Position numbers and translations under genes: made by a program. 39,283 nucleotides of DNA. It comes from Geminocystis herdmanii PCC 6308. GTDB lineage: Bacteria > Cyanobacteriota > Cyanobacteriia > Cyanobacteriales > Cyanobacteriaceae. Location of the stretch: assembly GCF_000332235.1 (NCBI RefSeq), contig NZ_CM001775.1, forward strand, positions 264,247 to 303,529. Reading direction: 5' to 3'. Position 1 is the stretch's first letter, and each line of letters begins with the position of its first letter. Positions 4,310 to 36,427 of the stretch are shown here, in pieces. A model generated the notes under the pieces. It was not told the DNA's origin and ran no database searches. It saw only the letters and a list, made by a program, of their open reading frames with translations.

Positions 4310-4329
4310 GGGTTTAATATATTAAACCC
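4310..4329 (-). terminator. Perfect palindrome between tpsA and tpsB
   Basis: GGGTTTAATATATTAAACCC is a perfect 20-base palindrome 34 bases after the tpsA stop codon. It is a likely partial terminator or RNA processing hairpin that could lower tpsB expression relative to tpsA. No strong T-run follows on the minus strand. Confidence 0.5.
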
Positions 4330-4338
4330 CTACATTCT

Positions 4339-4359
4339 TAATTCCTAATTCCTAATTCT
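4339..4359. repeat. Heptamer repeat (TAATTCC x3)
   Basis: Three tandem heptamers TAATTCC, TAATTCC, TAATTCT lie between the tpsA stop codon and the palindrome. Confidence 0.6.
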
Positions 4360-4362
4360 TTC

Positions 4363-20852: not shown

Positions 20853-20912
20853 AATTAAAAGGATGAAAAAGTCTTTTGATGACGGGAGGTATTAGATAAT
20901 CAGTAACAGTTT

Positions 20913-20968
20913 TAATTCTTAATTCTTAATTCTTAATTTTTAATTCTTAATTTTTAATTCTTCATTCT
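20913..20968. repeat. Heptamer repeat (TAATTCT/TAATTTT)
   Basis: Seven tandem heptamers, TAATTCT with TAATTTT variants, plus one diverged unit (TCATTCT). They fill most of the gap between the GluR0-like gene and the pseudokinase gene. This is of the cyanobacterial STRR type. Confidence 0.85.
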
Positions 20969-20969
20969 G

Positions 20970-22085
20970 TTAATCTACACCAAACCACTGTTCATAAATA
21001 CGATCGTAAGTACCATTTTCCTTAAGACGTAAAATAGCTTGGTTAATAGATTCACGATAAGGGCTATCTGATTTTAAAGCAATACCATAACTTTGTTTCG
21101 CAAAAACTGAACCCACTACCCTCGCATTTCCATTACTTTCACTTCGGGCATAATAACGCAAAACAGGGGCATCATACACTATCGCTCTTATTTTACCCTC
21201 CTCAAGCGCGGTATAAGCCTGTTCGATCGAATCAAACAACACCATATTAACTTTAGTAGAGGCTAAAAATTCTTCCGCCGTAGTGTTTCTCACAGTGCCA
21301 ACAAGTTTATTGTGTAAATCTTGGATAGTAGTAATATTATTATCTAATTTTTCCACCGTTAAAGCCGAAGTAACCGAAGCAGTAAAATAAGAAATGAGCA
21401 TTACTCCCGTAAACATCCACACCGTAGCGACAATTCTTCCTGCAACTCCCTTGGGGGTTTTGTCACCATAACCGACGGTTACTACCGTTACCACCGCCCA
21501 CCAAAAAGACTCCCAAATACCTTCTATATATTTTTCAGGAAATTCGGGGTTATTTTTCCTTTCTAAAATCCAAATTAAATGGGCAGCAATGGAAATTACT
21601 ATTATCAAAAAAAGTATTGTACTCCATAAAATAGGAGAGAAAAGGAAAGAAATCACCATTTGCCAAGGGTAAATATTTTTACTAGAGACTAAAATTTGTA
21701 ATCCCGACTCAAAAAAAGGATAGGAAAAATCCACATCTTTTTCTCTCTGTGCCGTCATAGTAATTCCAGCCATGCCAATATCCGTATTTTCATCCCGAAT
21801 AGAAGATAGTAAATCAGGGATGGTTTTTTCTCCATAGATTTCTGACTCTAAATTTAATTCTTTGGCTATTTCATTCCATAAATCAATACTAAAACCTGCA
21901 TATCTTCCACTATCTTCAAACACAAAGGGAGGAAAACTTTTCGTGGCAACCCTCACACGAGGGGAATTAATTTGAGCATCAGCACTAATACTGTTCCCTA
22001 AAACCCAAAGTATTACAGTTATTATTTTTAATAATTTATGTCTTTTTTTTGAACTAATAAACAATTTTTCATAAATCATAATCAT
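20970..22085 (-). CDS. GluR0-like ionotropic receptor / K+-selective ligand-gated channel
   Basis: A 371-residue protein with the architecture of prokaryotic ionotropic glutamate receptors, first characterised in Synechocystis. Order: signal peptide (about 17-37, ending SADAQ); ligand-binding half S1 (about 44-135), with TAQREKDVDFSYPF, where Arg114 should bind the ligand carboxylate; transmembrane helix (about 148-173); pore loop with a potassium-channel selectivity filter, TVVTVGYGD (about 200-208); transmembrane helix (about 217-241); and S2 (about 250-371), with the NKLVGTVRNTTAEEFL and AIVYDAPVLRYYA segments. It sits in the plasma membrane with the binding domain outside. The ligand cannot be told from sequence. 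The start is MIMIYEK; the second Met is equally possible. It lies 117 bases upstream of the pseudokinase on the same strand and is divergent from the coiled-coil array. Confidence 0.93.
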   Translation of the reverse strand: MIMIYEKLFISSKKRHKLLKIITVILWVLGNSISADAQINSPRVRVATKSFPPFVFEDSGRYAGFSIDLWNEIAKELNLESEIYGEKTIPDLLSSIRDENTDIGMAGITMTAQREKDVDFSYPFFESGLQILVSSKNIYPWQMVISFLFSPILWSTILFLIIVISIAAHLIWILERKNNPEFPEKYIEGIWESFWWAVVTVVTVGYGDKTPKGVAGRIVATVWMFTGVMLISYFTASVTSALTVEKLDNNITTIQDLHNKLVGTVRNTTAEEFLASTKVNMVLFDSIEQAYTALEEGKIRAIVYDAPVLRYYARSESNGNARVVGSVFAKQSYGIALKSDSPYRESINQAILRLKENGTYDRIYEQWFGVD

Positions 22086-22407: not shown

Positions 22408-23304
22408 ATGGCAACAACGGAAATTAATGTTTTAATTGAACAAGTTGACGAAAGGGCGCAAGCCTTGATTGTGGAAGGAGAAAAGTCTTTTCAGGAAGTG
22501 GAAGCAATTGTTGCTAAAGCCACTGAAATCGCCGAAAATTTGTCCACTGCTGGGGAAGAAGCAAAGACAAAATGGGAAGCGATGATTGCCGAAATTGAGG
22601 AGGCAGAAGCTACCCTCGAAACGGAATTAGACAATACCACTAATATTATGGGGGAATTTGAAAGCAAAATAGGAGAAATTACCGATCAAGTTACCCAGTC
22701 GATCGAGGAGTTTCAAGCTAGATTAGAGGAGTTTATCGCTAAAAAAGAAGAAATAGCCTCAGAAATCGAAAGTCAAACAGAGGAAAGTAAATCTAGTTTT
22801 GATAGTTATGCCCAAAATATCAAGGATACTGAAGAACAATTTGGCACTTATCAAGAAACTGCAAAAAGCAACATTGAAGGATTAAACGAAGCGGTAAACA
22901 CGGCTACTGAAAGTTTCCAAAGTCAAACAGAAAATTTAGCCCAACAATTTGCTGATTTGGCGGAAGAATTAAACAGTAAATTGGAAAGTTTGCAAAGTGA
23001 ATTTGATGATGTAGAACAACAAGCATCATCAGGAGCTGATTCTCTGGTAGAAGGTTTAACATCTCAAACTGATGATTTAGTTAGTACTCTCACTTCTAAA
23101 TTTACGGAAGAATTAATGGGAGATTTGACGGATTCAGCAGGAGGATTAACGGAGGCTTTAGGTTTCCTTAGCAGTGCTGGAGAAGAAGCGGAAGAATTGT
23201 TAGACGGTGGTATTGGCGATATTGTTGGGCAGGTTGGAGAAATTACCGATCTCATCGATGAGATTAAACCCGTTTTAGACTTGATTCAAGACCTTTTAGG
23301 TTAA
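22408..23304 (+). CDS. Acidic coiled-coil protein 1 of the array
   Basis: A 298-residue protein rich in Glu, Ala, Thr, Ser and Gln, without Cys, signal peptide or membrane helix. Heptad-like spacing of Leu/Ile/Val/Phe runs through about residues 5-230, predicting a long coiled coil or helical bundle. The C-terminus is more hydrophobic and Gly-containing (EELLDGGIGDIVGQVGEI, then a final helix ending LIQDLLG). The segment LSTAGEEAKTKWE (45-57) matches LATVGEEFDSNWE in protein 4 of the array, which shows common descent. A GGAG ribosome-binding site precedes the ATG. It is the first gene of a rightward series and 78 bases before the next. I recognise no named family; function unknown, possibly a filament or scaffold component. 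Confidence 0.85.
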   Translation: MATTEINVLIEQVDERAQALIVEGEKSFQEVEAIVAKATEIAENLSTAGEEAKTKWEAMIAEIEEAEATLETELDNTTNIMGEFESKIGEITDQVTQSIEEFQARLEEFIAKKEEIASEIESQTEESKSSFDSYAQNIKDTEEQFGTYQETAKSNIEGLNEAVNTATESFQSQTENLAQQFADLAEELNSKLESLQSEFDDVEQQASSGADSLVEGLTSQTDDLVSTLTSKFTEELMGDLTDSAGGLTEALGFLSSAGEEAEELLDGGIGDIVGQVGEITDLIDEIKPVLDLIQDLLG

Positions 23305-23381
23305 TTTTTGTTACGGATGACGGATTTTGTGCGATTTTTTTTACTTTCATTACTAATACTTAATATCAGGAGATTGCGACT

Positions 23382-24374
23382 ATGGCTGAAACTCAAGTGA
23401 TGGAGCAGAATATTGATGAGTCGATCGAGAAGCTAGAAGAATTATTAAAAGCGCTCGATATTGCAAATAATCAAATGGGAGATTTTACCCAACAATTAGA
23501 ATCAACTAACGAGTCTCTCACCCAATGCGAAGAAAATGTAACTTCTATATTGGAGACGGCTAGTAGTGATTTTGAAAGCTCAAAAGAAGAATTTACCCAA
23601 GATTCTACCGCCATGATGGAAGGCTTAACGGGTTTTCAAGAAGCCTTAAACGAGTTACAGGCAAAAATGGACGAAGTTAACCAATCCATTGAGGAGAAAA
23701 AGGGGGAAGTTGAGGAAGAAGTTAACAATCAACAGGAGGCTTTAGAAGGGGTTTTTGCTGACTTAACAGAAACTTTCGGTACTTTAATAGAGTCGATCGA
23801 AACTTTAACATCATCTTTAGAAGAAAGTAACAACACCGCCGAAGAATTTTTTAGCACCTTTACTGATGAAGTGTCAGGATTGCAAGATAATTTAACCTCC
23901 GCCCAAGAAGAAACCGAAGATAAGTTAGAAGAAACTGCCACCAACGTAGGGGAAACCCAAAAAAGTGAGCTAGATTCTTTACTGAGTGAGTTTAGTGGTA
24001 ATTTGACAGGGGAGCAATTAACAGAATTAACCTCTCAATTAGAGGATTTAACCAGTGGTTTTGAAGATTTGCTTTCTTCCTTCAGTGACGAAAACATGGA
24101 TTTAGCAGATCAACTTAAAGAGCGTTTAAACGAAATTCTGGAAAATTCGATCGAATACTCAGGAGAAACCATGAAAGACGAACTAACAGAGTCTTTTCAA
24201 GACGCAATGGAAAACGCCGTATCTGGTTTAGCCCAAGAAATGGTAGAAAACATCACCATGACAACCGTTGGTACTTCTGTCACCGCCTCTATCAGTCCTA
24301 TGTTACCCACTATTGTAGCGGCAAAAGTAGCATTGAGCGCTATCAATGCCGTCTTAGATGCTTTTGACTTCTAA
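23382..24374 (+). CDS. Acidic coiled-coil protein 2 of the array
   Basis: A 330-residue Glu/Thr/Ser/Leu-rich protein, almost wholly helical by composition, with heptad-like hydrophobic spacing to about residue 285. It has a single Cys (Cys49). Unlike its neighbours it ends with a markedly hydrophobic stretch (about 288-330: MTTVGTSVTASISPMLPTIV, then AAKVALSAINAVLDAFDF), which could be a membrane-associating or oligomerising helix. A strong AGGAG site precedes the ATG. The gene is followed by a hairpin with a T-run. No named family recognised. Size, composition and position mark it as part of the same paralogous set. Confidence 0.85.
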   Translation: MAETQVMEQNIDESIEKLEELLKALDIANNQMGDFTQQLESTNESLTQCEENVTSILETASSDFESSKEEFTQDSTAMMEGLTGFQEALNELQAKMDEVNQSIEEKKGEVEEEVNNQQEALEGVFADLTETFGTLIESIETLTSSLEESNNTAEEFFSTFTDEVSGLQDNLTSAQEETEDKLEETATNVGETQKSELDSLLSEFSGNLTGEQLTELTSQLEDLTSGFEDLLSSFSDENMDLADQLKERLNEILENSIEYSGETMKDELTESFQDAMENAVSGLAQEMVENITMTTVGTSVTASISPMLPTIVAAKVALSAINAVLDAFDF

Positions 24375-24388
24375 CTTGGTTCGTAGTA

Positions 24389-24407
24389 ACGGCTTTAGCC
24401 GTCTTTT
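24389..24407 (+). terminator. Hairpin with T-run after coiled-coil gene 2
   Basis: ACGGC, a four-base loop TTTA, GCCGT, then CTTTTT form a small terminator-like hairpin 15 bases after the stop codon. The surrounding TTCGTAG...GGCTTTAGCC sequence recurs inverted at about 25529-25548, so it is also part of an interspersed repeat. Confidence 0.55.
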
Positions 24408-24493
24408 TGAGAATTAAGATCAAAATCTATTGAAACAATGTGAAAGTTTTATTTAATACACAAAAAATCTATCATAAATAAGGAGTTTTAAAC

Positions 24494-25426
24494 ATGAGTG
24501 AATTAAGCGACAGTTTGAATATGTTATCTCAATTGATAACTCAGTTTCCCGAAAGACTAGATAATTTAATTACCCTAGCCGAAGAAGTGGAAGCCGAAGC
24601 CAATGAATTAGTCTCCAACGTTGAAGAAAAGCAATCTCAAGTAGCGGACATTATGACGGAAATTCAAGAAGCATTAACCGCTATGAAAGATGAAATCGCA
24701 GAAAATGAAACCAACACCGAAGCTGAGGTGGTGAACTTTGAAAATAGTGCTAATGAATTAACTGCCTTCTTAGAAGAAGCTCAACAGCAGATGATTGAAG
24801 AAGTGCAAAGCGCGATGGAAAAAATGAACGAATTTAAAACCCAAATTGAGGAGGGAAAAACCGAAACCGAAACCACCGAAGAAACTACTCAAAACACCTT
24901 AACAGAAGCCCAAAATTCTATTAAAGCAAGTCAAGAAGAATTAGCTTCCGCTATGGAAAGTACTCTAAGTGTGATGGAAACTCTGCGAGACAAACTCGAA
25001 GACGTTACCAGTCGCATGGAAGAAGAAATGCAGAATTTTACCGAACAGGTAAATCAAGGGCAAGAAACCGTTACCAGCGAAATTCAAACTATGGCACAAG
25101 AATTTGCCTCCGTCAGTGAGAATTTTAGTGGTGTTTTGTCTTCTACCTCCGAAGCCATGTCTGGGGGTGTTGACGGTTTAATGGATAAAGCTCAAAGTGA
25201 AATTGAACAACAGCTACAAGAATTAATTGCCTCTGCCATTGGTAAAGTTACCGATTCTCTCGATGACATGGTACAAAAAATCACCAATGCTGAAGACGAA
25301 TCTTCTGGTATGAGAGAAATTGTTGCAGATTTAATCGACGAATTAGATGGCTTTATCGAACCCATTGAAGAAGGTATCGATGGTGTCAAATCTGCTGCCG
25401 AGAAATTTGGTGTTTCCTTCGGATAA
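24494..25426 (+). CDS. Acidic coiled-coil protein 3 of the array
   Basis: A 310-residue Cys-free, Glu/Thr/Ala/Gln-rich protein with heptad-like hydrophobic spacing along about residues 5-270. The central part (about 110-190) is especially acidic and threonine-rich (EEGKTETETTEETTQNTL), offering possible phosphothreonine sites. The C-terminus carries a shorter hydrophobic helix (REIVADLIDELDGFIEPIEE) and ends KFGVSFG. No signal peptide or membrane helix. An AGGAG ribosome-binding site lies 8 bases before the ATG. The preceding gap contains a terminator-like hairpin, so it may have its own promoter. No named family recognised; function unknown. Confidence 0.85.
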   Translation: MSELSDSLNMLSQLITQFPERLDNLITLAEEVEAEANELVSNVEEKQSQVADIMTEIQEALTAMKDEIAENETNTEAEVVNFENSANELTAFLEEAQQQMIEEVQSAMEKMNEFKTQIEEGKTETETTEETTQNTLTEAQNSIKASQEELASAMESTLSVMETLRDKLEDVTSRMEEEMQNFTEQVNQGQETVTSEIQTMAQEFASVSENFSGVLSSTSEAMSGGVDGLMDKAQSEIEQQLQELIASAIGKVTDSLDDMVQKITNAEDESSGMREIVADLIDELDGFIEPIEEGIDGVKSAAEKFGVSFG

Positions 25427-25436
25427 TACTATTACG

Positions 25437-25560
25437 TTTTGTAATTAAGAGGAAACGAAGCAATCTCCCTTGTCTGTCATTGCGAGGAACGAAGTAATCT
25501 CTTAATCTCTTTCGGAGATTTTAGAATAAAAAGGCTAAAGCCTACGAACTAATTAAATAT
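25437..25560. repeat. Interspersed repeat debris between coiled-coil genes 3 and 4
   Basis: The gap contains TCATTGCGAGGAACGAAG (about 25477-25494), a sequence type seen as an interspersed repeat in several bacteria, with a related GAGGAAACGAAGCAATCTC copy just before it. It also holds AAGGCTAAAGCCTACGAAC (25530-25548), the inverted counterpart of the element after gene 2. No gene is seen. Confidence 0.5.
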
Positions 25561-25586
25561 AAAATTGATTAAAAGGAGTTAAAAAC

Positions 25587-26495
25587 ATGGCTACAGACTT
25601 AGAACAAAGTATTGGCGAAACCGTCAATCAACTACAAGAATTATTAGATCGAGCAGACACTGCGGAAGAAAATCTTACCCAAGCAAGAGAAAAATTAGCC
25701 ACAGTGGGGGAAGAATTTGATAGTAACTGGGAAGAATTGTCCACTCGTGCCCAAGCATTATTAGAGAAAATTTCCACCGCAAGAGATGAATTAAGTACTC
25801 AAACCGATAGCCTAAAGGAAGGATTAACTAATTTACAAAGTAACGTACAATCTGCCCAAGAACAAGCCAGTCAAGGAGTAGAAAACGCTAAAACGGAAAT
25901 TAGTGCCCTAAAAGAAGATAGCGAAGCAAAATCTTCGGAATTGGAGGAAGTTTTCAACACGATTAAAGAAACCCTTGAAACTTTACAAAGCAAAGTGGAG
26001 GAAATACAAGAGGATTTAGAAAGTACTGTCAGTGAATCTCAAGGGAAATTAGAAAATGATTTCCAAAGTGCCATGAATGAAAATCAATCAGAAGTGGAAG
26101 AAAAAACAGCAGAAGTTGAGCAACAGATAGCCCAAGACGCTATTTCTCGCTTAAATGACATGATTTCTACGTTTTCTAGTCAAATTCAGGAATTAACGAG
26201 TACGGTTACTGAACAAGCACAAGAACAAGCCAATAATACCCAAGAATCGGCTAATTCTACTTTAGAAGACTTTACCAGTGGTGCAGAGGGGATTTTCGGG
26301 GATTTACTTTCCACTGCTGAGGATATAGAAAGTACTTTGACTACCATTAGTGAGGCGGTTTCTACTTTAGGCACAACCGTTGACACTACCACAGATACCT
26401 TAACAACTGCAATGGACACGACAAATGTAGGTTTAAATAGTGCGATCGGTATTTTTGACGAAGTGAAGGAATTGTTAAGTAAAGTCGGAGTGTAA
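25587..26495 (+). CDS. Acidic coiled-coil protein 4 of the array
   Basis: A 302-residue Cys-free protein rich in Glu, Gln, Thr, Ser and Leu with continuous coiled-coil-like heptads to about residue 225. A Thr-rich C-terminal section follows (about 240-285: TLTTISEAVSTLGTTVDTTT), then a short final helix EVKELLSKVGV. The segment LATVGEEFDSNWE (37-49) matches protein 1, the clearest pairwise link in the array. An AAGGAG site precedes the ATG. Its stop codon TAA is the first three bases of the 14-copy heptamer array that follows, so repeat slippage directly adjoins the coding end. No named family recognised; function unknown. Confidence 0.85.
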   Translation: MATDLEQSIGETVNQLQELLDRADTAEENLTQAREKLATVGEEFDSNWEELSTRAQALLEKISTARDELSTQTDSLKEGLTNLQSNVQSAQEQASQGVENAKTEISALKEDSEAKSSELEEVFNTIKETLETLQSKVEEIQEDLESTVSESQGKLENDFQSAMNENQSEVEEKTAEVEQQIAQDAISRLNDMISTFSSQIQELTSTVTEQAQEQANNTQESANSTLEDFTSGAEGIFGDLLSTAEDIESTLTTISEAVSTLGTTVDTTTDTLTTAMDTTNVGLNSAIGIFDEVKELLSKVGV

Positions 26496-26590
26496 CAATT
26501 AACAATTAACAATTAACAATTAACAATTAACAATTAACAATTAACAATTAACAATTAACAATTAACAATTAACAATTAACAATTAACAAT
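26493..26590. repeat. Tandem heptamer array, 14 x TAACAAT
   Basis: Exactly fourteen perfect TAACAAT units (98 bases) occupy the gap after coiled-coil gene 4. The first unit supplies the gene's stop codon. Perfect identity indicates recent expansion by slippage. Confidence 0.95.
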
Positions 26591-26625
26591 TCTCCATTCT
26601 CCATTCTCCATTCTCCATTCTCCAT
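26591..26625. repeat. Tandem heptamer array, 5 x TCTCCAT
   Basis: Five perfect TCTCCAT units follow the TAACAAT array without a break and end five bases before the start codon of coiled-coil gene 5. They occupy the place where a ribosome-binding site would be. Confidence 0.95.
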
Positions 26626-26630
26626 TTCTT

Positions 26631-27533
26631 ATGAGTCTTACTTTAAATGAATTAATCGATCGATTGCAAGAGAGAATAGAACTATTAGGAAGTCAAACTA
26701 CGGCTTCTACGGGTTCATTTTCTATGGTTAATAAAGCCATCGATTCCTTACACAATAATATTGAGAATATTAATACAAATACCCTTAATATTACTAATAA
26801 TTTAGGTAAAAAATTACTAGATTTAAGTAATAGATTAAAGGAAGAAAAAAACTCGGCGGAGGAAACTTTAAATAACCTCAAAAATCAAAGGGATTTAATC
26901 GATCGAACTACCGATGATTTAATCACTGAATATGAAACTAAAAATCAAGAGTTTAGAGATACTGTTGCGAATATCGATCGAAATCTTGATACGGCGGTTA
27001 ATCAATTACTAAATAATATTAATGAATGGTCAACAAAAATTGAAACTTTAGATGAAAACTTGACTAATTATCAAGAAGAAATAATGACAGATTTAGATAA
27101 TTTTCAAAGCACAACTAATAATTGGAGGGGAAATTTTAGAGAACAACAAACTAATTTAACTAATAATTTTAATGAAATTGAACAGTTATTAAATAATCAA
27201 ATTAAAAGTTTAAAAACTGAAAATAGACAGTTGATTAATCAAGCTATTAATTATCAAAAACAAGTAGAAAAAGAGGCAAAACAGTATGATAATAGATTTG
27301 ATGAAGAAATTAAAATTAACTTAAATGAGAAGGTAATAGATAATATTATTAATCAATTAGAGGAAAGTAAAATTATCATTCAAAATATAAATGATAATCT
27401 GAATAATGTGGGCGAAAATTTAGTTAAAAATATTGTGGATAATCAGGATAAACTGAGAGAAAATAATCAATATTTAACACAAATAGAACAGCAGTACGAT
27501 CGAAGTTTAGATATTGTCAGTTCGATCGAATAA
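26631..27533 (+). CDS. Coiled-coil protein 5 of the array
   Basis: A 300-residue Cys-free protein, strongly helical, with heptad-like Leu/Ile spacing throughout. It is Asn/Ile/Lys-richer than proteins 1-4 (NNIENINTNTLNITNNLG near residue 42) and more AT-rich in its codons, so it belongs with proteins 6-8 in composition. No signal peptide or membrane segment. The start ATG at 26631 has no Shine-Dalgarno sequence, since heptamer repeats fill the upstream region. Expression therefore either depends on an unusual leader or is low. The last residues are IVSSIE. No named family recognised; function unknown. Confidence 0.8.
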   Translation: MSLTLNELIDRLQERIELLGSQTTASTGSFSMVNKAIDSLHNNIENINTNTLNITNNLGKKLLDLSNRLKEEKNSAEETLNNLKNQRDLIDRTTDDLITEYETKNQEFRDTVANIDRNLDTAVNQLLNNINEWSTKIETLDENLTNYQEEIMTDLDNFQSTTNNWRGNFREQQTNLTNNFNEIEQLLNNQIKSLKTENRQLINQAINYQKQVEKEAKQYDNRFDEEIKINLNEKVIDNIINQLEESKIIIQNINDNLNNVGENLVKNIVDNQDKLRENNQYLTQIEQQYDRSLDIVSSIE

Positions 27534-27612
27534 ATTATGAATATTCTACAATGGTTATGAGCGACAGCAAAAATTATAAATTATTTCTAGTTTATTACCA
27601 TTATTAAAACTT

Positions 27613-29001
27613 ATGCTGACATCTGACACCAAGTCTTCGATTGCTTCTACCCTGAAAGCACAACGGGAATATTTCGCCACTTCTGCCACAAAATCCCTTG
27701 ACTTCCGTTTACAGCAGTTAAAAAAACTCAAATCTGCCATCGCCTCGAAACAGGATGAAATCCTAGAGGTGTTAAAAAAAGATTTAGGAAAGCCTAGTCT
27801 TGAGGGTTGTTTTGAGTTGGCTGTCTTACAGGATTTAACCTATACCATTAAAAATTTACCTCGATGGGTAAAACCCCAAAAAGTAAAAACGGGTATTGAT
27901 CTTTTTCCCAGTCAAGCTAAAATTTATCCTGAGCCTTTAGGTGTTGTTTTAATTATCAGCCCTTGGAATTATCCTTTTTCTCTCCTGATTTCTCCTTTAA
28001 TTGGTGCGATCGCATCGGGAAATTGTGTTATGTTAAAACCATCAGAAATAGCTACTAATACCTCTCGATTTTTAACAGATTTAATTAGGGATATTTTTCC
28101 TCCAGAATACATTGCCATTGAAGAAGGAGGAGTGGAAGTTGCCCAAGAATTATTAAGCTGTAAATTTGATCATATTTTCTTCACAGGAGGCACAAAAGTT
28201 GGCAAAATTGTTATGGAAGCCGCCGCCAAAAATCTTACTCCTGTCACCCTCGAATTAGGCGGGAAAAGTCCTTGTATAGTTGATAGGGAAATTAACCTAA
28301 AAGAAACCGCAAAACGCATTACTTGGGGTAAATTTATCAATGCAGGGCAGACTTGTATTGCTCCAGATTATCTACTGGTAGATAAGCAAATAAAAACCGA
28401 TTTAATCAAAGAAATAAAACAATGTATTAACTCTTTTTATGGAGATAATCCTGCGCTTACTGCTGACTATGGAAGAATCATTAATGAGCAACAATTCGAT
28501 CGATTAAAGGCTTTATTAAATGATGGTAAAATTATCATCGGCGGTGAAACTAATCGAGAAAAAAAATATATCGCTCCCACTATTTTAGATGATGTTTCTC
28601 CTAATTCTGCGGTGATGGAAGAAGAAATATTTGGACCTATTTTGCCTATATTAGAATATGATACTTTAGACAGTGCGATCGAACTCATTAATAGTAAACC
28701 AAAACCACTGGCATTATATCTTTTCTCCCATAATCAAGAAAAACAACAACAGGTATTAAGGGAAACTTCTTCAGGGGGAGTGTGTATCAATGAAACCATC
28801 ATGCACGTTGGGGTGACAGAATTACCCTTTGGAGGTGTCGGGGATAGTGGTATTGGTGCGTATCACGGTAAGGCAACTTTTGACACTTTCACCCATTATA
28901 AAAGCGTTTTATCTCGTCCATTTTGGGGAGATTTAAACTGGCGTTATGCACCTTATCAAGAGAAAACAATTAAACAATTTAAGAGTATGTTTACTAAATA
29001 A
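27613..29001 (+). CDS. Aldehyde dehydrogenase family protein
   Basis: A 462-residue NAD(P)+-dependent aldehyde dehydrogenase of the shorter class-3-like branch that in bacteria oxidises fatty or apocarotenoid aldehydes to acids. Landmarks: IISPWNYPFSLL and KPSEIA (cofactor binding), FFTGGTKVGKIV, general-base Glu214 in VTLELGGKSP, nucleophile Cys248 in NAGQTCIAPDYLLV, and EEIFGPILPILEY. The C-terminal part has FGGVGDSGIGAYHGKATFDTFTHYKSV. Full length and intact. It is on the same strand as the coiled-coil genes but looks unrelated and interrupts their array. The ATG at 27613 lacks a clear ribosome-binding site. A palindromic element follows at 29038-29060. Substrate cannot be assigned from sequence. 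Confidence 0.93.
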   Translation: MLTSDTKSSIASTLKAQREYFATSATKSLDFRLQQLKKLKSAIASKQDEILEVLKKDLGKPSLEGCFELAVLQDLTYTIKNLPRWVKPQKVKTGIDLFPSQAKIYPEPLGVVLIISPWNYPFSLLISPLIGAIASGNCVMLKPSEIATNTSRFLTDLIRDIFPPEYIAIEEGGVEVAQELLSCKFDHIFFTGGTKVGKIVMEAAAKNLTPVTLELGGKSPCIVDREINLKETAKRITWGKFINAGQTCIAPDYLLVDKQIKTDLIKEIKQCINSFYGDNPALTADYGRIINEQQFDRLKALLNDGKIIIGGETNREKKYIAPTILDDVSPNSAVMEEEIFGPILPILEYDTLDSAIELINSKPKPLALYLFSHNQEKQQQVLRETSSGGVCINETIMHVGVTELPFGGVGDSGIGAYHGKATFDTFTHYKSVLSRPFWGDLNWRYAPYQEKTIKQFKSMFTK

Positions 29002-29037
29002 TTTTCTTACAAAATACAATAACTTTTTTTGAAATTA

Positions 29038-29060
29038 TAGGGTGGGCATTGCCCACCAAT
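29038..29060 (+). terminator. Palindromic element downstream of aldehyde dehydrogenase (copy 2)
   Basis: The same 23-base sequence as at 956-978, core GGTGGGCATTGCCCACC, lies 37 bases after the stop codon. It could form an 8-bp hairpin. Confidence 0.5.
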
Positions 29061-29092
29061 CTCCACAAATAATTATTTTAAACTCAATAATG

Positions 29093-29536
29093 TTAGGTTC
29101 GATCGATATTGATAAACCAATTAGCAATTTTTAAGCCACTAAAATCGGCAAAGTCTCTAACATTATTCGTTACTAAAGTTACTAAAATTAAGTCATTAGT
29201 AAAGGCAATACTCGCAATTTATCCATCAGCAAAAGCCGGAGTTTTCCCTATTTTTGATAATCTTACCCTTTCCTGTGCATAATATTGAGCCGACTTTAAA
29301 TCATAATCAAGGATAGAAATAGTAGATAAAATTACATTCTCTAAATAATTTTCTAAATCCCGACGCTTATTAGAAATTGGCAATCGTAAAATACCAAATA
29401 ACAATTCATTAATAACCACAGAAGCAGTGGCTATTTCTTGAGAATATAAGGTTATATTTTTAGTAATATTTTCATTAGGTAAAGGACGTTTTGCTTCTGA
29501 GAAAATATTAGTATCTAATAAGTATTTTAAAGTCAT
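29093..29536 (-). pseudogene. VapC-like PIN-domain toxin broken by a stop codon
   Basis: A PIN-domain RNase toxin gene read from ATG at 29534-29536. The start LKYLLDTNIFSEAKRP carries the first acidic residue, and VVINELLFGI follows. The frame stops at 29219-29221 (TAA) right after PAFADG. Beyond the stop the same frame continues with IASIAFTNDLILVT, NNVRDFADFSGLKIANWF and ends at TAA 29093-29095. This is the missing C-terminal quarter of the domain, with the final acidic residue of the NVRDF motif. In homologues the stop position is commonly Gln (DGQIA), so one CAA-to-TAA change explains it. A small LVT duplication just before NNVRDF is a second defect. The truncated 105-residue product is probably inactive. 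It overlaps the antitoxin gene by 4 bases. Confidence 0.8.
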
Positions 29537-29814
29537 AAAATAATCTCTCTACCCGGTGATTTATCTCGTAAATTATCAAAAGTATCATCATCAAAAGATT
29601 CTAAATCCACTCGATTACGAAATTCTTGTAAAGCCTCCCAAAAATCTTTTTTCTTATGGTTTAAATTTGCTTTCAAATCATCCCCATTATTAGCTGTTGT
29701 CTGCTGTTGATTAACAACTTCTTTTTTTAGTTTATCCTCAAGAATATTAAATAGTGAAACTTGTTCGTCTGATGACAAATTATCTAAGTCTTTGATCATT
29801 TCTTGTAATGTCAT
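29533..29814 (-). CDS. Antitoxin-like partner of the broken VapC
   Basis: A 93-residue acidic protein (MTLQEMIKDLDNLSSDEQVS at the start). An N-terminal helical region could bind DNA or dimerise, and an unstructured acidic C-terminus (about 70-93) suits toxin binding. Assignment rests mainly on position: its stop overlaps the start of the PIN-domain gene by 4 bases, as in type II toxin-antitoxin operons. It has the best ribosome-binding site in the window, AGGAGG (about 29820-29825), as expected for an antitoxin that must be made in excess. The family cannot be named with confidence. Confidence 0.7.
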   Translation of the reverse strand: MTLQEMIKDLDNLSSDEQVSLFNILEDKLKKEVVNQQQTTANNGDDLKANLNHKKKDFWEALQEFRNRVDLESFDDDTFDNLRDKSPGREIIL

Positions 29815-30222
29815 GAGTTTACCTCCTACAAAAACCGATTTTCTTTAATTATATTTTAATCTCGTTTCAGTAGGGGGGTAAAAAAATTGTAATTTAATTA
29901 TCAAAAATGCAATTACGATATTTTATCTAACAACGTAATATTGTTCGATCGAGAGGAAGTACGATCGAACTGTCAAAATATCAACCAATTTTCAACTTTT
30001 TCGAGCAATTTAAGCAATCCATTAATTCCTATAATTATTCATAATTAATTCTTAATATTTTTTAATTATTTTATGTATAATTATTTATTATAATAAATCT
30101 TATTTAAGGTTTACGATCGTATATTTACTTGTGAAAATTACTGTATTATTGAGAAATGTATTATTAATTTTAGACGCTCATTATCTAAGAGATTAAATTA
30201 TTATTTATAATTAATATTTATT
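29815..30222. other. Divergent gap with inverted-repeat hairpin
   Basis: This is 408 AT-rich bases between the divergent antitoxin gene and coiled-coil gene 6. GTTCGATCG (29943-29951) and CGATCGAAC (29962-29970) form a 9-bp inverted repeat around a 10-base loop, a candidate operator or hairpin. The rest shows only AT-rich sequence in which promoters cannot be placed reliably; no gene is seen. Confidence 0.45.
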
Positions 30223-31875
30223 ATGGATATTTCAGAAAAAGCCAAAAAAGTTGTTGCCTCCTCCGTTGCTGGTTTAGGGGTTTTAGGTAGTTTAATTGGT
30301 ATGGGTTTCAAAAATAGCGTACAAGCTGAAGATGCCCTATCTAGCGTCACTCAAGAATTACAAGCAAGTAGTACTGACTTATTAGCTTTAGCCCAAGAAT
30401 TAGAAGGTGAAGAAGGGCAAAAATTGCAGAGTATGGGGGAATATATTGGTAGTTTAGCATCAAAAATGGAGCAAGGAGAAATCCCTACAGAAACAGAAAT
30501 TCAAGAGGCGCAAGGAAAATTAGACGAGTTAAGTGGAGGTGAAAGCAATTCTTCTCCCATTTCAGGAGATACCAATGATAAGGAAGATAGCGATAAGGGA
30601 GATAGTAATAAGGGAGATAGTAATAAGGGGGAAGCAACCTCTCAAACAGCAGGAAATCAAGAAAATCCAACGGCTTCGGAGGGAGGAGGTAAATCGTCAC
30701 AGGAGTCAGCTTCTACTGGTGGAAATAAACCAAAAGGGGAAGATAAAGGGAAAGATGGAGAGGAAGGTAAACAAACTCAAAGTAAAGGGGGAGGGGAAGG
30801 AGGAGAAAAAGGCAACTCAGGGAGGGGAGATTCTGGCAAAGGAGAAGAAAAAAGCGGTGTCAAGGAAATGGCGGAGGATGTGGATAGCGCCCAAAATCAG
30901 ATAGAGGAAATAAGTGCAAAATTAGATGAATTAGGAAAACTTTTAGATGGCGCAACGGAAGAATCGGAAAAAGAAGCAGAAGAATTAGATAATAGTAGTA
31001 AACAATTAGATGATTTATTGGAAAGTTTGACAGAAAAATTGACGGAAAATGAAACAGAGATAAATTCTGAGGAAGAAAATACTTTACAACAATTTACTGA
31101 TTTTCAAAATACCTTAACAGAATTGATGCAAAATCTATCAGAAATTCAAGAAACTTCCAGTAATAATGCTTCTGAAATTACCAATAAAATTGATTCTAAC
31201 CAACAAACCTTAAAAAATGACTTTGATAAAATTGATAGTATTATTCAGCAAATTATTAAGGGTGAATATTTACAGCAAAATAATAATGATGATGATGAGG
31301 AAGCTATTGATACTCCCGAAAAATTAACCCAAGTTATCGATAAAATTGAAAACTCTCTGACTTCTTTTCAAGAATTAATGGATACCATGAATAATGAGGT
31401 AGTTAATCAGGAAGAAGAAACGGAAGAAAATATAACTACTATTATAGATATTTTTAGTAACAGTCGATCGAACTTAGAAGAAAAATTTGAAGCATTGAAT
31501 ACAGAAATAACCGACATTAAACCGCAGGAAATCGAATCTAGTTTGACAATTTTTCAAGAAAATATTGAAGAAGAAACGACTCAATTTATTGAGAAAAATA
31601 TTAGTTTAATTAAGGATTTTCAAGACTCTAGTAAAGCATCCTTAGATAATTTTGAACATACTTTAGAAACTAATACACAAAATGAGATAGAAAACCAAAT
31701 GAATAATCTCACAGATGATTTATTAAAATTTTTACATCAACACTCAGATAATTATGAGCAAATTTATCAAATATCTAACACTTTAGAGGAATTAATTACT
31801 CTAAGTGAAGATTTATCTTCTGCTAGTGAAATTGCCGAAGAAATGAATCAACAATTAGATAATATTACCGTTTAA
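30223..31875 (+). CDS. Coiled-coil protein 6: long member with hydrophobic N-terminus and Gly/Ser/Lys linker
   Basis: A 550-residue protein and the only long member of the array. A basic start (MDISEKAKKVV) precedes a hydrophobic Gly/Ala/Leu segment (about 11-30: ASSVAGLGVLGSLIGMGFKN) and VQAED. This is either a membrane anchor or a weak signal peptide with an AxA-like site. A short helical part follows to about 100. Then comes a low-complexity Gly/Ser/Lys/Glu linker (about 105-215), including three DKGDSNKG-like repeats. The C-terminal 330 residues are acidic coiled coil like the other members. No Cys. The ATG has no clear ribosome-binding site. It heads a tight operon with genes 7 and 8 (gaps of 14 and 28 bases), so it may tether the ~300-residue members to the envelope. 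Function unknown. Confidence 0.82.
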   Translation: MDISEKAKKVVASSVAGLGVLGSLIGMGFKNSVQAEDALSSVTQELQASSTDLLALAQELEGEEGQKLQSMGEYIGSLASKMEQGEIPTETEIQEAQGKLDELSGGESNSSPISGDTNDKEDSDKGDSNKGDSNKGEATSQTAGNQENPTASEGGGKSSQESASTGGNKPKGEDKGKDGEEGKQTQSKGGGEGGEKGNSGRGDSGKGEEKSGVKEMAEDVDSAQNQIEEISAKLDELGKLLDGATEESEKEAEELDNSSKQLDDLLESLTEKLTENETEINSEEENTLQQFTDFQNTLTELMQNLSEIQETSSNNASEITNKIDSNQQTLKNDFDKIDSIIQQIIKGEYLQQNNNDDDEEAIDTPEKLTQVIDKIENSLTSFQELMDTMNNEVVNQEEETEENITTIIDIFSNSRSNLEEKFEALNTEITDIKPQEIESSLTIFQENIEEETTQFIEKNISLIKDFQDSSKASLDNFEHTLETNTQNEIENQMNNLTDDLLKFLHQHSDNYEQIYQISNTLEELITLSEDLSSASEIAEEMNQQLDNITV

Positions 31876-31889
31876 ACAAGGAGAAAATT

Positions 31890-32816
31890 ATGTCCACAGA
31901 GGCTTTAATTACAGGATTAGAATATATCAGTCAAGTCAGAAAACAACTCCCTGATGAGTTAGCTATTATGACGGAAAAACTTACTCTTATTAAACAACAA
32001 ATTGCCGATTCGATCGAGCAAAATAAATTAAAACAAGTAGAAATGATAACATTATTATTAACTATTCAAGAAAAGTTAAAAGCCTTGCCAGAAACCATTA
32101 TACAACAACAAAGTTTATTGCAAAATAAGATGATTTTAATTGCTAATAAACTGAAAAAATTAGACAAAATTATTGATACTCAAGAAGCCCAAATGTCTCC
32201 CATCTTAGAAGGAGTTAATAAATATTTTGAGCAATTTGAAAATCAATTAAAAACCATCAAAACTAAACATCTACAATTGTTAAGCGATAGTATGGTAATT
32301 TTTAATGAATTATGGCACACAGTGGAAGATAATTATAACAAAATGGAAGTCAGTTGGTTAGAAATGGAACAAGAAACCGATATTTTAAACCAAAAATTAA
32401 CCAGTTTTCAGCAAACAAGTCAATCTCATTTTAGCACTACGGAAAATAATTTAGACGAAATGCAAAATACCTTAGAAAATTATGTTGAAGATAATATTAT
32501 TAATGCCTTAAATAATGTCGAAGAAACGTTAAAACAGGAGATAGAAAATAGTTTAGAAAATATCGAAGATAAAATTCAAGAATTTAACGAAGAAACAGAC
32601 GATAGAATAACAGAAATGGGAGAGTTAATTAAAGAAACTATAGCTGATGTGATGGAATCGATCGAAGAATCTTTAGCCATAGAAGATAACAGTCAAGAAA
32701 TAGACGATTCTCAGACTAAATTTGTACAGACATCAGAAAATTTAACAGGTTTAATGCCTTCAATTAGACAATTAATTTCTGACTTAGAAAAAGCTAAAGA
32801 GTCACTAAATATTTAA
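31890..32816 (+). CDS. Coiled-coil protein 7 of the array
   Basis: A 308-residue Cys-free protein. The N-terminal half has more Lys/Gln/Leu (ELAIMTEKLTLIKQQIADSI), while the second half is acidic. Heptad-like hydrophobic positions are continuous, and two Trp residues occur near the middle (in NELWHTVEDN and VSWLEMEQ). It ends with a helix LMPSIRQLISDLEKAKESL. No signal peptide or membrane segment. AAGGAG precedes the ATG, and the gene begins 14 bases after gene 6, so the two are almost certainly co-transcribed. No named family recognised; function unknown. Confidence 0.83.
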   Translation: MSTEALITGLEYISQVRKQLPDELAIMTEKLTLIKQQIADSIEQNKLKQVEMITLLLTIQEKLKALPETIIQQQSLLQNKMILIANKLKKLDKIIDTQEAQMSPILEGVNKYFEQFENQLKTIKTKHLQLLSDSMVIFNELWHTVEDNYNKMEVSWLEMEQETDILNQKLTSFQQTSQSHFSTTENNLDEMQNTLENYVEDNIINALNNVEETLKQEIENSLENIEDKIQEFNEETDDRITEMGELIKETIADVMESIEESLAIEDNSQEIDDSQTKFVQTSENLTGLMPSIRQLISDLEKAKESLNI

Positions 32817-32844
32817 CTTTCATTTAACTTTAAGGAGTCAAATT

Positions 32845-33741
32845 ATGAGTACATTAATTGATATAGTCAGCAATGTTTATCAAGAGTTTTTAGATTTTGA
32901 AACGGAAAAAAAAGACACCTATGAGAAGATAGAAGATTTAGAAGATTTTTTAGAAGAAAGTAATCAATTAACGGCAGAAAATTACGCTAGTTTAACCGAT
33001 ATATCTGAGACTTTCATAGAAGAAATTGATAATATCTCAGAAAATTTTATTGATGAAATATCCTCCATGTTAGAAGAATTAGACAGTTTAGGAGAACATA
33101 TTGATCAATTTATCACAGAAACAGAAACCCTCGCCCAAGAAAGAAAACAGGAAGTAATTGATTTAGTTGATAAAATGGGGGATTATAATCAACAAGTTAA
33201 TGATTCGATCGAACAACTATCAAATATAGTAAACCATTTTAACGAAACCGTCACAGAAATAAAACCCCCCTTAGAATCTAACTTAAATAAAGTCACAACA
33301 TTTATCAAAGATGTGATGATTAGGGGTATTAAAAACTATCAGAATATTATAGAAGATAGTGAAGAAAAACTAGAAGAATTACTAGCAGAAAATATAAATA
33401 ACGCCCTTGAAGAAGAAACAGAAAACTTACAAAATTCCCTTGATGATATTGGTAATAACATCGAAAATATTGAAAATAATTATCAGGAAAACTTAGAAAA
33501 TATTACCGAATATTTAGTAAACTTTTACGGAGATAAAAGCAACTATTTACAAGATAAATATCAAGAAATTTTCACCTTAATTCAAGAAGACTCGATCGAA
33601 ATGTTAAAAAATAAAGAACAAGAAATTAATGAAGAAAATAACAACCTCAAAGAAGTTATAGAAACTGTGTTAGTTAACTATTCAGACATTAATAATAACG
33701 CAGAATCTTTGATGGAGATTTTTGAAAAACTCATTAAATAG
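32845..33741 (+). CDS. Coiled-coil protein 8 of the array
   Basis: A 298-residue, very acidic, Cys-free protein, Glu/Asn/Ile/Leu-rich, with heptad-like spacing over nearly its whole length. It starts MSTLIDIVSNVYQEFLDFET and ends SLMEIFEKLIK. The central stretch (about 180-225) is dominated by Glu and Asn (ENINNALEEETENLQNSLDD). No signal peptide or membrane helix. TAAGGAG precedes the ATG; the gene follows gene 7 by 28 bases and closes the operon. No named family recognised. Equal length to genes 1, 4 and 5 supports a common building-block size. Confidence 0.83.
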   Translation: MSTLIDIVSNVYQEFLDFETEKKDTYEKIEDLEDFLEESNQLTAENYASLTDISETFIEEIDNISENFIDEISSMLEELDSLGEHIDQFITETETLAQERKQEVIDLVDKMGDYNQQVNDSIEQLSNIVNHFNETVTEIKPPLESNLNKVTTFIKDVMIRGIKNYQNIIEDSEEKLEELLAENINNALEEETENLQNSLDDIGNNIENIENNYQENLENITEYLVNFYGDKSNYLQDKYQEIFTLIQEDSIEMLKNKEQEINEENNNLKEVIETVLVNYSDINNNAESLMEIFEKLIK

Positions 33742-33845: not shown

Positions 33846-33873
33846 AAAGGCAAGAGGCAAAAGGCAAAAGGCA
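33846..33873. repeat. Heptamer repeat (AAAGGCA x4)
   Basis: Four tandem heptamers, AAAGGCA, AGAGGCA, AAAGGCA, AAAGGCA, lie in the gap after coiled-coil gene 8. Confidence 0.8.
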
Positions 33874-33957
33874 AGATTAGTCGTATCTTCGATATTTTTT
33901 CTAATAATTTATTTCTCACAAATGATTCCTGATTGCTATAGTAGTCTAATTCCTCAT

Positions 33958-34657: not shown

Positions 34658-36427
34658 ATGAATGACTCTGCTACTATAAATCATAATATTCCTTCCCCTT
34701 ATAAAGTTATTAAAAAACTAGGTAGTGGTAGTTTTGGTCATGTTTACCTCGTTACGAATGGAGAAACTCAACAGCAATGCGTTATTAAAATACTGCATCC
34801 CATTTCTCAGCAACCCAACTTTATTAAACAGGCAAAAAGACTCTTTCAACAAGAAGCCACAATTCTCAAAAAAGTCAATCATCCCCAAGTGCCAAAACTG
34901 ATTGATTACTTTGAAGAAGAAGGAGAATTTTATTTAGTAGAAGAATATATACAAGGTTATACTCTTAGAAATGAACTGAAACCAAATCAACCTTGGACGC
35001 AAGAAGCAACCATTAAATTATTACAAGAAGGACTATCCATTCTCAAAGATATTCACCATTGCGGAATCATTCATCGAGATGTGAAACCAGATAATTTCAT
35101 TCGTCGTCAACAAGATCAAAAATTAGTGTTAATTGATTTTGGTGCGGTTAAAGAATTTAATATAGAACAAAGTCGCTTAATTGATCCTACCGTAGCTTTG
35201 GGTACTCGTGGCTATATGCCCACAGAACAAGCTAGGGGGAAACCGTATAAAAACAGTGATATATATGCTTTAGGCATGATTGCCATTCAAGCCTTAACGG
35301 GTAAAAATCCCATGGATTTAGAAGAGGATGAAGAAGGGGAAATTATTTGGCGTAATGGAGTAAATATTAATCCACTTTTAGGGGATATTCTTAGTCAAAT
35401 GGTGCGGTATCATCACAAATTGCGTTATCAATGTGCAGATGATGTCATTAAGGCTCTAAATCATTATTTACAACCAAAGTCTAACATTGTTAGTACCCAA
35501 TTAATTGATAATTCTCCATCACCTTCGGAAACAATAAATAAAACCGAGATTATCAATAATACTAATTCTGCTGTTTCCACTTCTGGGAAAAATGAAATGA
35601 CTTCTCCTAGGGAAACACAAAATAACTCTTTTGGCGATTGGTTAAAATCTTCTGTAGGTTCAACGGTGACAACCGCCCTCACCATCGGACTCATTGCCAC
35701 AGGAGGAGCTTATTTTATGAATAGTCAAGAAAAAGCTCGCATCGAACAAGAGCAAAATGATTTTGTGGCTTTAATGGATACTAAACTCAGTAGTGGTGCT
35801 TATGAGGAATGTTTTACCACAGTTGAAGAAGAATTAGAGAAAGAAAGTACTAATATTACCAGTAAAATCTTATCACAATATCAGGGGCAATGTCGTTTAG
35901 AACAAGGTAAACAATTAGCACAATTTTCTAATTATACTGATGCTTTAGCTGTAGTTAATAAAATCCCGAAGGATAATGAATATCATAATCAAGCTCAAGT
36001 TTTATCGGAAGAATGGAGTAAAATGGTGTTTGAAAAGGCAAAAACTCTATATACCGAAGAAGGAAAATTAGATGAAGCCCTAAAGGAAATTGATACTATT
36101 CCCGATAATTCTGTGAAAAAAGCATCTTTAATTGTGGTGAGTAAATGGCAGGAGGAATATAAGCAAAATAGTTATTTATTAGGTCAAGCCCAAAAAGATT
36201 TAGAATACAATAATTGTGAGTCTGCCATCGAAACTGTTAGTCAAATTTCGGGTTCAAATTATTGGTTATTAGAAGGGAAAAAAGTTGTAGATAAAGCTGA
36301 AAAATGTTTAATCGATCGAACTAAAAACTCTCCAAATAATTCTAATAATCAATCATCTCCACTGCCATCACTTCCCACTAATGGTCATGCTATCCCTCTT
36401 TGTCCGGGTCCTTTATGTCCTGATTAA
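34658..36427 (+). CDS. Membrane-anchored Ser/Thr protein kinase with C-terminal CPGPLC tail
   Basis: A 589-residue Hanks-type kinase of cyanobacterial type. The catalytic domain (about 14-275) has all key residues: GSGSFGHVY (22-30), Lys44 in VIKIL, Glu66, HRDVKPDN (139-146), DFG (160-162), GTRGYMPTEQARGK and SDIYALGMIAI. A Ser/Asn-rich linker leads to one transmembrane helix (about 335-356). An outer helical domain of about 190 residues with TPR-like spacing follows, then an Asn/Pro/Ser linker and the tail CPGPLCPD (Cys582, Cys587). The whole architecture is shared with the pseudokinase at 19119-20852. It is monocistronic. A possible TATAAT lies at 34625-34630. Its last 38 bases overlap the convergent dndC gene. 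Confidence 0.93.
   Translation: MNDSATINHNIPSPYKVIKKLGSGSFGHVYLVTNGETQQQCVIKILHPISQQPNFIKQAKRLFQQEATILKKVNHPQVPKLIDYFEEEGEFYLVEEYIQGYTLRNELKPNQPWTQEATIKLLQEGLSILKDIHHCGIIHRDVKPDNFIRRQQDQKLVLIDFGAVKEFNIEQSRLIDPTVALGTRGYMPTEQARGKPYKNSDIYALGMIAIQALTGKNPMDLEEDEEGEIIWRNGVNINPLLGDILSQMVRYHHKLRYQCADDVIKALNHYLQPKSNIVSTQLIDNSPSPSETINKTEIINNTNSAVSTSGKNEMTSPRETQNNSFGDWLKSSVGSTVTTALTIGLIATGGAYFMNSQEKARIEQEQNDFVALMDTKLSSGAYEECFTTVEEELEKESTNITSKILSQYQGQCRLEQGKQLAQFSNYTDALAVVNKIPKDNEYHNQAQVLSEEWSKMVFEKAKTLYTEEGKLDEALKEIDTIPDNSVKKASLIVVSKWQEEYKQNSYLLGQAQKDLEYNNCESAIETVSQISGSNYWLLEGKKVVDKAEKCLIDRTKNSPNNSNNQSSPLPSLPTNGHAIPLCPGPLCPD

Follow-up and report, generated by a model that had tools for sequence, protein, structure and literature searches.

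Polymorphic toxins are a main weapon of bacterial warfare. To our knowledge, each known group of them is tied to a delivery route, and antagonism has been little studied in the cyanobacterial phylum. Among the described systems, the type VIIb secretion system (T7SSb) is characterized by the EssB/YukC pseudokinase, EssC with its FHA domains, helical WXG100 partners, LXG toxins and immunity genes (PMC9600267). The trafficking modes listed for polymorphic toxins include types II, V, VI and VII, PVC, TcdB/TcaC, PrsW, MuF and others (Zhang et al. 2012, PMC3482391), and filament proteins rich in coiled coils have been described from cyanobacteria (Springstein et al. 2020, PMC7002697); each of these three sources is cited here for a part of its text. 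Here, we analyze a stretch of 39,283 nucleotides from Geminocystis herdmanii PCC 6308 (contig NZ_CM001775.1, positions 264,247 to 303,529; hereafter, the window), which contains eight genes encoding acidic, coiled-coil-like proteins, named CC1 to CC8. An initial annotation made from the sequence had taken the eight as one set of building blocks of a filament, scaffold or surface layer. The data presented below show that in a related branch of cyanobacteria such genes stand next to toxin genes that have a common N-terminal sequence, which suggests that the four-gene set doubled in the window belongs to a toxin-handling machine of a type not described so far.

RESULTS

A four-gene unit and its tandem copy

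The eight proteins were compared with hhalign, using families of 28, 28, 27 and 27 sequences for CC1 to CC4, and of 5, 5, 5 and 3 sequences for CC5 to CC8, with reversed profiles serving as controls. The data showed that CC1 to CC4 are mutually similar and roughly collinear, with E-values from 1e-14 to 5e-18, the latter for the collinear alignment of CC3 with CC1, and with reversed controls between 4e-11 and 7e-9. The best match of each of CC5 to CC8 among CC1 to CC4 was its positional counterpart. CC5 matched CC1 (E 3e-16 over 288 columns, with a one-residue offset), CC6 matched CC2 (E 7e-13, residues 8-328 of CC2 aligning to residues 224-548 of CC6), CC7 matched CC3 (E 6e-11 over 299 columns), and CC8 matched CC4 (E 3e-8 over 182 columns, with a one-residue offset), while the reversed controls for these pairs were 4e-5 or worse. 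CC5 was also matched by the CC1 family profile in a search of its own genome (E 4e-14). The pairing of CC8 with CC4 had the poorest E-value of the four, and because the reversed controls of other pairs between the two sets went down to 7e-7 (CC2 with reversed CC7), it is the weakest link; with smaller alignments, CC8 was closer to CC2 (1e-7) than to CC4 (2e-6, with a control of 3e-6).

These comparisons indicate that the eight proteins are real and homologous to one another, and we conclude that one ancestral rod protein gave rise to four paralogues, the set of four being then duplicated in the family of the window. As judged from the alignments, the natural unit is not the set of eight, as had been assumed, but four genes, A-B-C-D (CC1 to CC4), with a tandem copy in the same order (CC5 to CC8). 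The description of the genes as one array holds for their common strand, but not for their continuity, because an aldehyde dehydrogenase gene and a minus-strand PIN-domain gene pair separate CC5 from CC6. The intergenic gaps are 14-160 bp, except for the 1221 bp between the aldehyde dehydrogenase gene and CC6. CC5 and CC6 adjoin directly in the four relatives that keep both of them (G002, G007, G008 and G011), and the aldehyde dehydrogenase gene split the duplicated array later. CC8 was not found in the loci of G008 and G011.

The pair at 29219-29814 consists of the PIN-domain gene and a small upstream gene, and resembles a toxin-antitoxin pair, with the PIN domain scoring 23.5 against a Pfam cut-off of 23.6. 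Tandem repeats of 7-bp units (TAACAAT x14, ATTCTCC x5, TTAATTC x8 and AAAGGCA x4) are present in gaps at or beside the array, at 26493-26626, 20912-20968 and 33846-33874. A scan of the window with Rfam gave no match.

Composition and predicted structure of the rod proteins

The eight same-strand open reading frames are of near-uniform size (Table 1), and the whole set contains exactly one cysteine, located in CC2, both as initially annotated; the scarcity of cysteine is not a family trait, since the B family has 69 cysteines in 28 sequences. All eight had been described as acidic, which applies strongly to CC1 to CC4, CC6 and CC8 (net charge of -0.15 to -0.20 per residue), but less so to CC5 (-0.07) and CC7 (-0.10). 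For comparison, a net charge of -0.12 per residue was reached by none of 279 other open reading frames of at least 200 amino acids from A-D loci. A regular hydrophobic period of 3.54-3.60 residues extends across the full length of seven proteins, which was reached in 0 of 500 shuffles, while in CC7 it is weak (peak at 3.73, 4 of 500 shuffles). Hence the spacing, previously called heptad-like, lies between that of a heptad (3.5) and that of a straight helix (3.6), and is nearer to the straight helix. The motif LxTxGEExxxxWE, which was noticed as common to the first and fourth proteins, is indeed present at position 45 of CC1 and position 37 of CC4, but it is not a conserved feature, as it is kept in 2 of 28 and 1 of 27 sequences of their families; the tryptophan is kept in 26 of 27 D sequences.

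The lengths of the rod proteins vary by about 10 residues despite an identity of about 30%. They are 295-307 residues for A, 327-337 for B, 301-325 for C and 294-302 for D, the exceptions being one locus in which all four have 270-277 residues (B 275) and one A protein of 221 residues. The AlphaFold2 (AF2) model of CC1, obtained with a 3-sequence alignment, consists of a helix from residue 2 to 239 and another from 246 to 297, with a predicted local distance difference test score of about 70-81 over residues 11-200 and of 67 overall. The narrow range of lengths and the long uninterrupted helix are in line with the building blocks first proposed. CC6 has about 220 additional N-terminal residues, which comprise, according to the alignment, a glycine-rich hydrophobic stretch and a Ser/Gly/Lys/Glu linker. 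Searches of the eight proteins against Pfam and NCBIfam gave composition-driven matches only. Two of these were above their cut-offs, ATG17_like for CC1 (43.6 vs. 43) and Nup88 for CC4 (26.1 vs. 24.4); as they came up together with dozens of coiled-coil families of no relation, they are regarded as spurious.

Gene order and distribution

The A and D families were searched for in 388 genomes of the cyanobacterial class, and B and C were followed within the loci. A was found in 23 of the 388 genomes, including that of the window, and D in exactly the same 23, with 6 first-look candidates scored per genome, so that single misses are possible. Among the window's genome and its near relatives, CC1 was present in 8 of 40, and it was missing from 3 of 4 other genomes of the same genus. 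The order A-B-C-D and the common strand were identical in all 26 complete loci (25 genomes, with two loci in G176). Two further loci, in G195 and G277, are cut by contig ends and were kept apart from these 26; in G195, A is found at one end of contig C293, while B, C and D are on contig C295. The clustering is thus far beyond chance, and both the profile similarity and the conserved neighborhood, the absence of which the initial annotation would have taken as a sign of chance neighbors, were found.

In a tree of concatenated A-D sequences from the 26 loci, taxonomic families are scattered, the two copies of G176 are separated, and G025, from the order of the window, stands beside G077, from another order, their A-D proteins being 91-97% identical. 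Because of these three features, the A-D loci seem to have been spread by horizontal transfer. No D gene was found in plasmids, in which the versions from the window, G237 and G204 were searched for, or in viral contigs, and the FHA-domain protein described below was also not found in plasmids. A repeated search for D, covering 36 genomes of one family and 42 of one order, gave no new locus.

Tagged toxin genes between B and C

In 11 of the 26 complete loci, genes on the same strand lie between B and C, and their products have a common N-terminus of about 30 residues, here called the tag; such genes are also present at this place in G195 and G277. Among 19 tagged proteins that were scanned, one of them only weakly tagged, 7 passed a Pfam cut-off. 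The domains detected were PT-HINT in two proteins, one of which also has Ntox24, and Ntox28, Peptidase_C39, DUF6973, Amidase_6 and Ntox5; the last is just at its cut-off (25.1 vs. 25) and belongs to a gene located 3′ of D in G284. NCBIfam added nothing notable for the slot proteins. Hence, the slot genes show the characteristics by which polymorphic toxins are recognized, which are a constant N-terminus followed by unrelated C-terminal toxin domains, with known toxin or releasing domains among them.

A tag profile was built from 12 seed sequences of 10 loci, which were thus bound to be found. It matched 12 of the 388 genomes, with 18 first-look candidates scored in each, so that here too a single miss is possible, and all of them are within the 23 genomes with A-D, while there was no match in the 365 genomes without A-D. 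All seven matches outside the seed were located in A-D loci, two each in G195, G237 and G284 and one in G277; both tagged genes of G195 are on contig C295, together with its B, C and D.

In one of these G195 proteins (locus L110, 1635-2387) the C-terminus resembles a GIY-YIG nuclease by eye, with Pfam being silent. Three other tagged proteins of 121-171 amino acids (L066 10807, L068 10749 and L110 2435) consist of the tag and a glycine-zipper-like hydrophobic stretch, for which the Pfam glycine zipper was detected only in the L068 protein and below its cut-off. It is possible that such short proteins are a membrane-active cargo.

Apparent exchange of the toxin cassettes

To compare how the parts of these loci diverge, the identities of A-D, tag, toxin body and next gene were determined for eight pairs of loci. 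In the pair G324/G072 the A-D proteins are 91-95% identical and the tags 82%, while the toxin bodies are 22% and the next genes 15% identical. Similarly, G089 and G237 have 86-88% identity in A-D and 92% in the tag, but only 32% in the toxin body. The opposite was observed for G089/G365, where A-D are only 37-44% identical, while the toxin body (80%) and the next gene (87%) are well preserved and the tags are 52% identical. These data suggest that toxin cassettes have been exchanged within a fixed frame, as they are in polymorphic toxins, and that in the case of G089 and G365 a toxin and the gene next to it were apparently transferred between A-D systems that are only distantly related. Swapping is not seen in every pair, as the slot genes of G284 and G277 are 100% the same, while G090 and G077 are too distant to tell. 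In G101/G284, with 88-91% identity in A-D, the tags are 25% identical, although the open reading frame of G284 starts upstream of its tag. The sequence comparisons indicate that the tag does not simply follow A-D.

FHA-domain protein, kinases and other neighbors

The part of the FHA-domain membrane protein that follows the FHA domain was found in 27 of the 388 genomes (3 first-look candidates scored per genome, again with single misses possible), namely in all 23 with A-D, in G083, G159 and G032, and as a fragment in G153. The gene is within the fetched stretch in 21 of the 26 complete loci, and it is encoded away from A-D in G007, G008 and G011. In the family of the window (13 genomes), the FHA protein was present in exactly the six genomes with A-D, and so was PK1, at E <= 1e-60. 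A weak match to the G domain of mitofusin Fzo1 (E 0.004-0.015) was located in the part following the FHA domain, while the N-terminal part alone gave no dynamin match, and no P-loop GKS/T motif was seen by eye in an alignment of 23 relatives. The weak Fzo1 match and the lacking P-loop tentatively suggest that this protein is a dead dynamin-like protein, the similarity being marginal. In 2 of the 23 relatives, there was a weak IcmF-related match (best E 0.0012).

A kinase gene is present in 23 of the 26 complete loci. PK1 of the window has no glycine loop, lysine, HRD aspartate or DFG aspartate, and because these motifs are missing in all five PK1 members that were read, it is regarded as a pseudokinase. 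In distant loci the catalytic motifs of the kinases are retained in most cases, with one motif changed in each of G089, G237 and G059, and a piece without kinase domain in G048. The sequence CPGPLC occurs within the last eight residues of both PK1 and PK2, and it is kept in the four PK1 orthologues that were read.

Table 1. Features of the window discussed in the text
Feature	Coordinates	Strand	Remarks
FHA-domain membrane protein, constant A-D partner	14455..16596	+	FHA E 1e-15; hydrophobic segment
FHA-WD40 protein, recurrent A-D neighbor	17333..18760	-	Domain scan and locus comparison
PK1, kinase-like (pseudokinase), hydrophobic segment 395-421	19119..20852	-	Domain scan and motif reading
Glutamate-receptor-like ligand-gated channel, divergent from CC1	20970..22085	-	Domain scan and locus comparison
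CC1, rod protein A	22408..23304	+	298 aa
CC2, rod protein B	23382..24374	+	330 aa, C-terminus hydrophobic
CC3, rod protein C	24494..25426	+	310 aa
CC4, rod protein D	25587..26495	+	302 aa
CC5, A′ (A copy)	26631..27533	+	300 aa
Aldehyde dehydrogenase interrupting the array, not part of the system	27613..29001	+	Domain scan
CC6, B′ (B copy, N-terminally extended)	30223..31875	+	550 aa
CC7, C′ (C copy)	31890..32816	+	308 aa
CC8, D′ (D copy)	32845..33741	+	298 aa
PK2, Ser/Thr kinase, catalytic motifs intact	34658..36427	+	Homologues near A-D in distant loci

In two of the genomes which have the FHA-protein homologue without A-D, it is followed by a gene for a glycine-rich acidic protein of 402-478 amino acids (L107 of G083, 11015-12223; L108 of G159, 8139-9575), and G083 also has kinases beside this homologue. 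The FHA protein and the glycine-rich protein are possibly a sister system with another partner. The glutamate-receptor-like channel is not specific to A-D, as it is present in 9 of the 13 genomes of the family. Genes resembling Wza and Wzc are located 3′ of D in seven loci (identified with Pfam for G324). On the minus strand of the window, at 2499-13125, a transporter of the ShlB/FhaC type of two-partner secretion is encoded beside a protein of 2920 amino acids that carries a CHAT protease domain at its C-terminus. This pair of genes is also close to A-D in G007 and G010, and the G204 locus contains homologues of both.

DISCUSSION

We favor, with slightly more confidence than doubt, the explanation that A-D are a helical-rod apparatus controlled by kinases and the FHA protein, which handles and probably exports or delivers tagged cargo, and that in one clade this cargo is toxins. 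According to this explanation, A, B, C and D would be very acidic, almost straight helical rods (about 35-45 nm, if fully helical) forming one heteromeric assembly, which would cooperate with the FHA-domain membrane protein and with transmembrane Ser/Thr kinases, whose signal the FHA domain would probably read in order to switch the assembly or the docking. The cargo would be recognized by its short helical N-terminal tag, and in the one clade it would consist of polymorphic toxins, the genes of which lie between B and C with likely immunity genes behind them, sometimes beside the Wza/Wzc-like envelope-export genes. The window would carry a tandem-duplicated version, A-D and A′-D′, with PK1 as an added pseudokinase. 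A more far-reaching form of this explanation, to which we give somewhat less credence than doubt, is an undescribed protein-delivery machine, in which four paralogous rods of about 40 nm, gated by a transmembrane kinase through an FHA-bearing inactive dynamin-like protein, would recognize the tag of about 30 residues and deliver exchangeable toxins across the cyanobacterial envelope, with a doubled version in the lineage of the window.

Several observations weigh against the handling of tagged cargo by A-D. No Pfam domain above cut-off was detected in 12 of the 19 tagged proteins scanned, and among six neighbor genes scanned a known immunity domain was found in only one, which has SUKH-1. The similarity between the tag and A-D was not significant (best hhalign probability 13%), and the tags can differ between nearly identical systems, since G025 and G077, with 91-97% identity in A-D, have tags that are only 45-55% identical, and G101 and G059, with 85-89% in A-D, have tags with 28% identity. 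The AF2 model of CC2 is helical, but its confidence (46.8) is too low for interpretation. No export signal, channel or energy source was seen that all loci share, the Wza/Wzc-like genes being restricted to the seven loci. Furthermore, in the tree of the 26 loci, without G195 and G277, the toxin-bearing loci form one clade (support 1.0), of which G295 is the sole untagged member, and the window is outside of it, which means that the toxin role may be derived. Tagged proteins were not found in the genome of the window or in the other A-D genomes of the same family covered by that search (G007, G008 and G011), and PT-HINT was not found in the 13 A-D genomes without a tagged gene in the locus, that of the window included. 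Because of this, delivery is inferred for the toxin clade, and it is doubly conditional for the window, the branch of which would have to do the same job.

Another explanation, which we regard as unlikely, is that A-D serve inside the cell as a cytoskeletal or membrane scaffold in the form of a filament or mesh. This scaffold would be switched by the kinases and the FHA protein and have no role in toxin traffic. The long helix, the equal lengths, the regular hydrophobic period and the lack of a signal peptide, as judged by eye, agree with such a scaffold, as do the occurrence of coiled-coil-rich filament proteins in cyanobacteria (Springstein et al. 2020, PMC7002697, in the part considered) and the lack of tagged proteins in the window's own genome. 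However, a scaffold leaves unexplained why exchangeable toxins encoded within the run of A-D genes begin with a tag that was found at A-D loci only, and the patchy, apparently horizontally spread distribution is unlike that of a core cytoskeleton. The passive filament, scaffold or surface layer initially proposed also does not predict the FHA protein, the Ser/Thr kinases or the toxins of the related clade. Filament building blocks are a possible reading, but one that explains less than toxin handling does.

It is similarly improbable, in our view, that A-D are a signaling or stress module, with which the toxin cassettes merely share the same mobile island. The island seems to move between families, tagged proteins are missing in 11 of the 23 A-D genomes, the FHA, WD40 and kinase domains suggest signaling, and the tags have only 28-55% identity between the near-identical A-D loci mentioned above (G101/G059 and G025/G077). 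On the other hand, such hitchhiking does not account for the placement of the toxins in one slot and on one strand in 11 of the 26 complete loci, or for the lack of a tag match in the 365 genomes without A-D. Also in the apparent transfer between G089 and G365 the tag is less alike than the toxin body.

There is very little probability that A-D themselves are secreted pore formers made of several alpha-helical parts, like those of the ClyA/MakA/Nhe type, since the contacts of the B profile with MakA and a non-haemolytic enterotoxin component (E ~0.006, positions 6-112) are at background level, unrelated helical proteins scoring better in the same search (E 2e-5). CC4 has a weak HBL match (E 4e-4, below cut-off), but the CC1 model, based on a 3-sequence alignment, shows one long helix and no bundle, it has no match in the PDB according to Foldseek, and no hydrophobic head is seen by eye in A, C or D. 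That the eight are chance neighbors of similar composition is refuted by the fixed order in all complete loci, the all-or-none occurrence of A and D and the position-matched duplication, even though coiled-coil composition inflates scores, as shown by reversed controls reaching 4e-11 among CC1 to CC4 and 7e-7 for CC2 with reversed CC7.

Toxins with a private tag were found here only beside four rods accompanied by a kinase and an FHA membrane protein, and this suggests an uncatalogued delivery route. In this way anonymous coiled-coil proteins become a testable complex, with the tag as a direct handle for finding cargo and partner, and the question arises which cargo belongs to the duplicated version, free of toxins, in the lineage of the window. 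Such a system is not described in the titles and abstracts searched, a body of literature outside of which lie most subscription journals and all preprints.

A-D had no match in any known secretion system or protein family, and PADLOC, applied to 10 proteins of the window to look for known anti-phage defense systems, returned kinase, coiled-coil, beta-propeller and protease matches, all of them generic. The cyanobacterial filament proteins are likewise long and coiled-coil-like, while a four-gene cassette, a kinase/FHA partner and a toxin slot are not among their features in the part of the source compared, which was by description only (PMC7002697). The FHA protein resembles the dynamin superfamily (Fzo1) in its weak G-domain match and in a hydrophobic segment near the C-terminus, but without the P-loop it would not, by its sequence, be a working GTPase. 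The sheath, tube, VgrG and AAA+ proteins of Type VI and PVC systems were absent among the window and slot proteins scanned.

The T7SSb, in the part of its description used here (PMC9600267), shares with the A-D loci a kinase-fold membrane protein (here the pseudokinase PK1), an FHA domain, an acidic helical set, and polymorphic toxins that have a helical N-terminal part for trafficking and likely immunity genes. It differs in that no LXG or WXG100 domain was above cut-off in the slot proteins scanned, while CC1, CC2 and CC4 matched WXG100-type models only below cut-off (E 0.01-0.06), and none of the 14 window proteins outside the array that were scanned is an FtsK/SpoIIIE ATPase. Moreover, the rods have about 300 instead of about 100 amino acids, the hosts are cyanobacteria rather than Firmicutes, and the kinases of distant loci are for the most part catalytically equipped. 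Hence, the A-D system would work like the T7SSb at most by analogy. The trafficking modes in the part of PMC3482391 examined include nothing similar to A-D, and in that part "FHA domain" occurs once and "coiled coil" nowhere. Because the ATPase, WXG100 and LXG parts of T7SSb are missing in the scans, and because the routes given there do not include such a system, these comparisons suggest that the A-D system is new in kind. At the same time, its cargo resembles the polymorphic toxin systems described in that source (Zhang et al. 2012), with which it shares the constant N-terminus, HINT, the exchangeable C-terminal toxin and the adjacent likely immunity gene.

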